A DNA stretch of 20,937 nt from a virus: positions 1 through 20,937 of IMG/VR virus record IMGVR_UViG_3300022074_000460; one strand, 5' to 3'. This document shows, piece after piece, positions 94 to 993 of the stretch. The position numbers were made by a program, and so were the translations under genes. Position 1 is the first letter of the stretch, and every line of letters begins with the position of its first letter. Below the pieces are notes generated by a model that was not told where the DNA came from, did no database searches, and saw nothing but the letters and a program-made list of their open reading frames with translations.

Positions 94-993
94 ATGGATT
101 ATGCCAAAAGGTTAAACCACGTTGATTTGTGTTCAGGGGTTGGCGGGTTTGCATTGGGGTTTCGTTGGGCTGGAATGTCCGATCCGATTTTGTTTTGCGA
201 TACTGATGAGTGGTGTCGCAGGGTGTTGAAAAAGAATTTTCCTAACACCCCCCTAGCTAATGATGTGCGCGAGGTAGCGGATGAGCCATCCCGATTTATT
301 CGGCAGCGGGTCGATATCGTCACCGCCGGATACCCTTGCCAGCCATTTAGCAATTCGGGATTGCGAAGAGGCGAAGAAGATCCTCGCCACATCTTTCCGC
401 ACATCTTGCGGCTTGTTACACAAACGCGACCCACTTGGTGCGTTTTCGAGAATGTTTATGGACACCTCTCGCTGGGCTTGGACACAGTACTCGATGCAAT
501 GGCAGCCGAAGGCTACGCCAGCCGGACGTTTATTGTTCCAGCTACAGGTGTCGGCGCGAGGCATCAGAGAAAGCGGGTCTGGATTGTGGGCTACTCCCCG
601 AACAACGGATGTGACGGGAGGGGCGAGGACGCTAGGCGAGGATGGGCGCAGGGTGAGCAAAAGCAACCCCAGCCAGACTTACGGGGCGAATCTAGCGGAT
701 CAGGTTTTGATGTGGCCGACTCCCAGAGCTTCGGAGTGGAAGGACTGCGGGGAGGTGGGGAGCAAGTCGCACTCTCACATGATGGACAAAGAATATCTCT
801 GTGCGGGAGTCAAAGACCCAGCCCAACCCAATGGGCGGCTGAACCCCGACTGGACAGAGTGGCTGATGGGTTACCCAATCGGGTGGACAGAATTAAAGGA
901 TTAGGCAACGCAATCGTTCCTCAAATAGCCATGAATATTGGGCTGGCTATAGTTGAGCATGAGCGAAAATTTGGGGCGTTGCACAACTGTTAG
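94..993 (+). CDS. DNA (cytosine-5-)-methyltransferase
   Basis: This gene transfers a methyl group from S-adenosylmethionine to C5 of cytosine in a DNA target, probably shielding phage DNA from host restriction. From ATG 94 (299 aa) it shows motif I at about residues 11-22 (DLCSGVGGFALG), motif IV with catalytic Cys82 in GYPCQPFS, motif VI Glu119-Asn-Val, motif VIII Gln158-Arg-Lys-Arg161, and motif X near Gly271-Asn272 (GLGNAIVPQ). These are the canonical C5-MTase blocks in order, so it looks complete. The start is ATG 94 or the adjacent TTG 91; an in-frame stop at 79-81 rules out anything longer, and no strong Shine-Dalgarno precedes it. The stretch between motifs VIII and X, where the target-recognition domain should lie, is unusually rich in Gly, Gln, Ser and Arg and poor in hydrophobic residues. 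That same DNA carries a patterned +1-frame ORF (281-904). The recognition sequence cannot be predicted. Confidence 0.93.
   Translation: MDYAKRLNHVDLCSGVGGFALGFRWAGMSDPILFCDTDEWCRRVLKKNFPNTPLANDVREVADEPSRFIRQRVDIVTAGYPCQPFSNSGLRRGEEDPRHIFPHILRLVTQTRPTWCVFENVYGHLSLGLDTVLDAMAAEGYASRTFIVPATGVGARHQRKRVWIVGYSPNNGCDGRGEDARRGWAQGEQKQPQPDLRGESSGSGFDVADSQSFGVEGLRGGGEQVALSHDGQRISLCGSQRPSPTQWAAEPRLDRVADGLPNRVDRIKGLGNAIVPQIAMNIGLAIVEHERKFGALHNC
271..274 (+). promoter_or_regulatory. Shine-Dalgarno for the nested ORF
   Basis: GAGG sits six bases before ATG 281, which is ideal spacing. It lies inside the methyltransferase coding sequence, where a ribosome binding site has no use for that gene. It supports independent translation of the nested +1 ORF, although a four-base match can arise by chance. 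Confidence 0.5.
281..904 (+). CDS. Overprinted ORF nested in the methyltransferase gene (+1 frame), unknown function
   Basis: This 207-aa frame lies wholly inside the cytosine methyltransferase gene, offset by +1. It starts at ATG 281, six bases after a GAGG. The product is not random-looking: it has ATPAGRLLFQL at residues 78-88, LWATP at 102-106, MWPTPRAS at 144-151, and a tryptophan-rich C-terminus at 187-205 with EWLMGYPIGWT. From memory, proteins with WPTPxAS and a C-terminal LNPxWxEWLMGxPxGWT are annotated in many phages and prophages as hypothetical or methyltransferase-related. I cannot check whether those copies also overlap a methyltransferase frame. Motifs opposite conserved blocks (VIII, IX-X) may be forced shadows of the main gene. 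The WPTPRAS region lies opposite the poorly patterned target-recognition segment and is harder to explain that way. No catalytic motif, signal peptide or membrane segment is seen, and function is unknown. Confidence 0.5.
   Translation: MSHPDLFGSGSISSPPDTLASHLAIRDCEEAKKILATSFRTSCGLLHKRDPLGAFSRMFMDTSRWAWTQYSMQWQPKATPAGRLLFQLQVSARGIRESGSGLWATPRTTDVTGGARTLGEDGRRVSKSNPSQTYGANLADQVLMWPTPRASEWKDCGEVGSKSHSHMMDKEYLCAGVKDPAQPNGRLNPDWTEWLMGYPIGWTELKD

Follow-up and report, generated by a model that had tools for sequence, protein, structure and literature searches.

C5-cytosine DNA methyltransferases made of two subunits are already known. In M.EcoHK31I, the large subunit carries motifs I–VIII and X and was also credited with the recognition domain, which leaves the small subunit with motif IX alone (PMC3404938). 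The large-subunit gene of M.EcoHK31I is reported to contain the small-subunit ORF in a different frame, and activity in vitro reportedly depends on both proteins (Lee, Kam and Shaw 1995). M.EaeI is another two-polypeptide enzyme of the M.EcoHK31I kind. In M.AquI, alpha contains motifs I–VIII, and beta the distal recognition region and motifs IX–X (PMC3404938). Split C5 methyltransferases serve as targeted DNA methylation tools (PMC3439449). The multispecific phage C5 methyltransferases (M.SPRI and M.phi3TI type) are single chains, and their tandem, exchangeable recognition units of ~40 residues lie between motifs VIII and IX.

The window analysed here was the whole stretch of 20,937 nucleotides (positions 1–20,937) of IMG/VR virus record IMGVR_UViG_3300022074_000460. 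A single segment of it very probably codes for the two subunits of a heterodimeric C5-cytosine DNA methyltransferase from a tailed phage; translation, subunit assembly, methylation activity and target recognition are inferred. The methyltransferase ORF (91–993) entirely contains a second ORF (281–904) in the +1 frame. The products are called alpha and beta, and the features are as follows.

91–993, + strand: methyltransferase ORF, with an ATG at 94.
94–993, + strand: alpha, C5-cytosine DNA methyltransferase of 299 aa, with motifs I–VIII and X and without motif IX (PF00145, phrog_363, AlphaFold2 model).
271–274, + strand: putative internal Shine-Dalgarno site of beta, GAGG, six bases ahead of the ATG at 281 (sequence; family-wide enrichment of such sites).
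281–904, + strand: beta, +1-frame ORF of 207 codons, ATG start and TAG stop (stop depletion, substitution rates, profile score, phrog_1008).
281–586, + strand: helical N-terminal part of beta, across alpha catalytic motifs IV–VIII, consensus LTWKxKxTxxGRLLFQL (both frames constrained).
587–712, + strand: putative beta recognition unit 1, WATPRTTDVTGG...ANLADQVLM (units in other loci).
713–838, + strand: putative beta recognition unit 2, WPTPRASEWKDCGEVGSKSHSHMMDKEYLCAGVKDPAQPNGR (units in other loci).
839–901, + strand: motif-IX-like end of beta, LNPDWTEWLMGYPIGWTELKD (the family's most conserved beta block).
604–873, + strand: alpha residues 171–260, connector between motifs VIII and X, unconserved and predicted to be unstructured (pLDDT, conservation).
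874–993, + strand: alpha motif X, NRVDRIKGLGNAIVPQIAMNIG, and C-terminus (conserved residues, pLDDT).
1035–2426, + strand: neighbouring terminase large subunit (phage packaging), given for context only (phrog_2, E 1.7e-54).

The original prediction, made from the sequence alone, had described a 207-codon +1 ORF at 281–904 inside a methyltransferase gene, which held exactly; its ATG six bases after a GAGG and the product motifs ATPAGRLLFQL, WPTPRAS and EWLMGYPIGWT were likewise confirmed. It had made no link to the two-subunit enzymes M.EcoHK31I and M.AquI. Among the few neighbours examined around the methyltransferase and terminase genes, no restriction gene was identified.

Like M.EcoHK31I, the window has a second ORF in another frame inside the large-subunit gene, with coding selection (see below), and it has motif IX (by pattern and position only) on the small subunit and motif X on the large. 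Unlike M.EcoHK31I, for which the recognition region was assigned to the large subunit, selection places that of the window in the small one. Possibly M.EcoHK31I belongs to the same family and its recognition domain was misassigned, a suggestion made without a sequence comparison. Eleven relatives resemble M.AquI in that the small subunit carries motif IX as well as motif X. The window differs from M.AquI in having motif X in alpha and not in beta, in the deep overlap of its ORFs in different frames, and in an extra N-terminal part of beta read over the alpha catalytic motifs. As in the M.SPRI/M.phi3TI type, tandem recognition units of beta were exchanged between enzymes, but here they lie in an overlapping frame and not in a single chain. 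PHROG 1008, which matched beta, is labelled “DNA methyltransferase”, a label silent on an overlapping-frame subunit. What is new here is a recognition region in a hidden frame, made of exchangeable ~40-residue units, in a widespread layout. No description of this overlapping arrangement in phages was found in the literature searched, where M.EcoHK31I was mentioned only in passing.

Alpha matched phrog_363 (E 4.9e-67) and PF00145 (E 1.7e-35), the latter over residues 9–173 only, which is the catalytic half, and carried motifs I, IV (PCQ), VI (ENV), VIII and X. No in-frame motif IX was detected in alpha of the window or of 80 viral loci gathered by alpha-only peptide patterns, and the stretch of the alpha chain from motif VIII to motif X held neither a recognition region nor motif IX. 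In the AlphaFold2 model, the large domain (residues 1–170) was confident (pLDDT mostly above 85), and ~170 residues could be aligned with the large domains of M.HaeIII and M.HhaI at 2.1–2.3 Å. Residues 171–260, opposite the beta recognition units and motif IX, had no secondary structure and a pLDDT mostly of 45–59, compared with 88–97 in the flanks and 88–95 in the motif X segment; this low pLDDT came partly from alignment gaps. Mean top-residue frequency of alpha in blocks across 589–813 was only 0.16–0.31, and G271, N272 and P276 were invariant in 67 alpha sequences. Alpha lacks a recognition region and a motif-IX-like block, and both belong to the beta frame; that this block is motif IX rests on its position, its pattern and its absence from alpha.

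Stop codons in the +1 frame were counted from motif IV to motif X in 77 loci (the window and 76 relatives from the alpha-pattern collection) and compared with shuffles of synonymous codons in which the methyltransferase amino acids were kept fixed. The collection had been gathered by methyltransferase patterns to avoid choosing loci by their +1 frame, with the caveat that the query alignment (A1) was itself built from loci first found via the +1 product. Only 10 stops were observed in the +1 frame against 293 expected, and the other alternative frame of the same loci had 1088 against 1098. For the window alone, no +1 stop was found (mean of shuffles 4.0, p = 0.003), and the other frame had nine (8.7 expected). 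Single-chain controls, mostly of Dcm type, contained 79 stops in the +1 frame against 97 expected. Against a beta profile made from bacterial-genome copies only, the window beta scored 185.9 bits, and 1000 synonymous shuffles scored a mean of 47.5 and a maximum of 84; at none of 123 further loci did any of 100 shuffles attain the observed score. About a quarter of the window beta similarity (47 of 186 bits) can be put down to methyltransferase shadow, and the remainder cannot. The beta ORF at 281–904 is a real gene under coding selection.

To resolve selection by frame, isolated nucleotide differences in 20 independent pairs of relatives were sorted by their effect in each frame, SN being silent in alpha and altering beta, and NS the reverse. 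The window had no close non-identical relative, so these rates came from other family members. In the 5′ non-overlapping part, SN was 0.340 and NS 0.007 (SN/NS 48), and in the 3′ non-overlapping part 0.371 and 0.011 (SN/NS 32). Across motifs IV–VI the rates were 0.215 and 0.052 (SN/NS 4.1), and across motifs VI–VIII both were reduced, to 0.091 and 0.080 (SN/NS 1.1). The relation was reversed in the recognition region, where SN was 0.026 and NS 0.240 (SN/NS 0.11, 0.07–0.18). Changes altering beta and silent in alpha were therefore ~9-fold rarer than the reverse in the motif VIII–IX interval and 32- to 48-fold commoner outside the overlap, and alpha opposite the units was under relaxed selection (NS 0.24 versus 0.007–0.011 outside the overlap). 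The motif-IX-like block showed the same trend with small numbers (SN/NS 0.47, interval 0.06–1.54). The pattern had been the same in an earlier run on 15 pairs, and three pairs of single-chain controls had an SN of 0.447 and an NS of 0.010 in the corresponding region. A codon table at the EWLMG site was conditional on the presence of the motif and was not taken as evidence. Selection thus acts on alpha outside the overlap, on both proteins where the catalytic motifs lie and, in the recognition region, almost exclusively on beta.

The reverse stop test, with beta amino acids fixed, was applied to 129 loci required to have motif X in the alpha ORF. No alpha-frame stop was observed over the recognition region, against 484 expected. 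In this common layout the alpha frame is held open through the recognition region, motif X staying in the alpha frame.

The first start of beta was preceded by a match of at least 6 bases to the anti-Shine-Dalgarno complement in 39% of 138 loci, compared with 1% of control positions, and by a match of at least 4 bases in 78%, compared with 23%. We infer, without expression data, that beta is made from its own internal Shine-Dalgarno site. The alpha start at 94 had no obvious Shine-Dalgarno sequence and beta had one, so the amounts of the two subunits may be unequal.

Beta matched phrog_1008 (E 6.7e-26), as did all 70 beta sequences tested, and W74 and L88 in its N-terminal part were almost invariant in the family. 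Pfam and NCBIfam recognized no domain in beta, even in long versions that contain motif X, and did not recognize the motif-IX-like block; a PDB sequence search with beta gave no match. AlphaFold2 modelled beta alone weakly (pLDDT 64, pTM 0.31), and a fold search with this low-confidence model found no match. The end of beta, LNPDWTEWLMGYPIGWTELKD, can be compared with the in-frame motif IX of single-chain controls, LTPQECARLMGFD; it is a likely counterpart, by pattern and position only.

From the end of its N-terminal part up to the motif-IX-like block, beta consisted of units of ~25–55 residues opening with [W/F/Y][P/A]TP. With a loose TP pattern, most betas gave one to five matches, the first often being the KATPxGRLLFQL block and not a unit. 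In 97 loci, 397 pairs of units were at least 55% identical while the N-terminal parts of their betas were less than 45% identical. Mean identity in these pairs was 0.67 in the beta frame and 0.32 in both the alpha and the third frame; selection of pairs on beta similarity inflated the first value, but it is still informative that alpha did not exceed the third frame. Unit 1 of the window was 65–74% identical to units in loci L002, L048, L049, L053 and L006 (beta N-terminal identity 35–45%), and unit 2 was 64–80% identical to units in L048, L063, L084, L096 and L121 (19–42%); for L121 the values were 69% for the unit and 19% for the N-terminal part. By analogy, these ~40-residue units would behave as exchangeable specificity modules, their DNA targets being inferred. 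Four loci (L214, L216, L219 and L235) combined a recognition region of very small size with a +1 motif-IX-like block that had diverged strongly, e.g. FNPETSEQMMAWPIGQTDLKP; specificity in this subgroup may be reduced or changed.

Among 251 distinct loci, 164 had the EWLMG-type motif-IX-like block in the +1 frame and motif X in the alpha frame, and 11 had both in the +1 frame. In these 11, alpha closed after motif VIII, mostly within a few codons, and before motif X there were 3–42 stops in the alpha frame and none in the +1 frame, which ended e.g. LNPDWTEWLMGWPIGWT...RIRAIGNGQVPACVALAWQIL. By sequence pattern, beta of these loci clearly corresponds to a C5 methyltransferase's C-terminal half, and its possession of motif X ties beta to the enzyme. 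No beta without any methyltransferase nearby was found among the loci, the sole departures being the frame-broken L039, L042 and L117. In these three and in L285, frame breaks interrupted alpha or scattered motifs over frames; sequencing errors, decaying genes and fusions could not be distinguished. L039 resembled a single-frame fusion of both halves, yet stops interrupted it, and a fusion there is no more than a suggestion.

The original prediction had favoured a dual-coding gene over a shadow of the methyltransferase, which was supported, the shadow accounting for about a quarter of the similarity. It had left three points to be checked in homologues: stops in the +1 frame, purifying selection on that frame, and occurrence without a methyltransferase frame. 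Stops were far fewer than the methyltransferase protein forces, purifying selection was strong and strongest exactly in the recognition region, and the family was found to continue where the methyltransferase frame was closed (the 11 loci). Two of its proposed roles, a methyltransferase partner and a supplier of target specificity, were supported, function being inferred; nothing pointed to beta as an anti-restriction protein, the third.

Similar proteins had also been predicted to be widespread in phages and prophages, which held. A tblastn search with the beta product hit 129 phage records, and in the phage loci inspected the homologue again lay inside a methyltransferase gene. A single beta-based scan with one short pattern, run over 84,980 species genomes of bacteria and archaea, returned 285 related stretches, by record title from Bacillota, Bacteroidota, Pseudomonadota, Acidobacteriota, Chloroflexota and others. 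Of the best 80 of these 285 relatives, 79 had overlapping alpha and beta, and L185 had motif X in beta. Relatives from enterobacterial and Xanthomonas phages (L128, L129 and L284) began with HFFAGIGGW and formed a separate branch with the same layout, their +1 ORF ending LNPAHSRWLMGxPxxWDD. Five near-identical copies (L166, L167, L169, L170 and L171) were present within about 230 kb across the record start of a Roseovarius chromosome (OX638333.1), possibly as repeated prophages or as an assembly effect.

Beta is annotated as “g50 internal gene” in Paenibacillus phage Redbud. In E. coli prophages, relatives are labelled as a single “DNA cytosine methyltransferase” or are split into two pseudogene fragments despite both frames being open. 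In one such prophage (L283, 1863–3032 of NZ_CP041110.1), two incomplete methyltransferase pseudogene fragments are annotated where neither the alpha nor the +1 frame is interrupted. Automatic annotation is apparently misled by the overlapping layout.

Three other explanations were considered. According to the first, beta is a separate protein (a regulator, anti-restriction protein or decoy) and not part of the enzyme, alpha alone being active with a very divergent recognition region. In its favour, the literature places the M.EcoHK31I recognition domain on the large subunit and gives the small subunit no more than motif IX (PMC3404938). It is very unlikely, because the alpha segment opposite the units is unconserved, under relaxed selection and predicted to be unstructured, and because motif X has passed to beta in 11 loci, which ties beta to the enzyme.

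The second, also very unlikely, is a programmed +1 frameshift after motif VIII giving one fused catalytic-recognition chain without separate initiation of beta. The 11 loci in which alpha ends soon past motif VIII and the +1 frame carries the remainder including motif X would fit it, as would the fusion-like, though stop-interrupted, L039. Against it, a single shift would lose motif X in the common layout, where this lies in the alpha frame; the +1 frame is constrained, with conserved residues, ~300 nt upstream of motif VIII; and an internal Shine-Dalgarno site and start are needless for a frameshift product.

The third, that beta is a shadow ORF, never translated and merely a consequence of conserved methyltransferase motifs and of codon bias, was rejected by the synonymous shuffles and the frame-resolved substitution rates and is all but excluded: ~47 of the 186 bits of the window survive shuffling, but +1 stops are depleted beyond what the fixed methyltransferase protein explains, selection switches frame, Shine-Dalgarno matches are enriched at beta starts, some loci have the alpha frame closed and the +1 frame open, and single-chain controls are negative.

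In the preferred reading, a two-subunit enzyme, the phage mRNA would be read twice, from 94 to give alpha and from 281 in the +1 frame to give beta. Alpha would form the AdoMet-binding catalytic large domain, with motifs I–VIII and then X at its end, and would have a mere unconserved connector in place of the small domain of a normal enzyme. The first ~100 residues of beta, overlapping the alpha catalytic motifs, would probably dock onto alpha, and its C-terminal half, ~40-residue units followed by motif IX, would be the missing small domain. Alpha and beta together would bind the target and methylate a cytosine of phage DNA, and this methylation is inferred most likely to protect the phage from host restriction.

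Outside small viruses, deep same-strand gene overlaps that selection maintains are rare. In this case an unannotated frame appears to hold the entire specificity half of a textbook enzyme family. The second protein is usually missed by annotation, though many phages and bacteria have this arrangement; where annotation shows one ordinary methyltransferase or pseudogene fragments, specificity predicted from the annotated chain would be read from the wrong protein. With motif X in either frame, the family is a natural experiment and a ready test of overlapping-gene evolution. A bolder reading, for which we see no decisive weight on either side, is that a broad class of phage and bacterial C5 methyltransferases keeps its specificity in an out-of-frame gene of exchangeable units. 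The alpha frame there would be only a connector that must stay open, so units could be swapped without harm to the enzyme body, and overprinting may thus make target specificity unusually easy to change.
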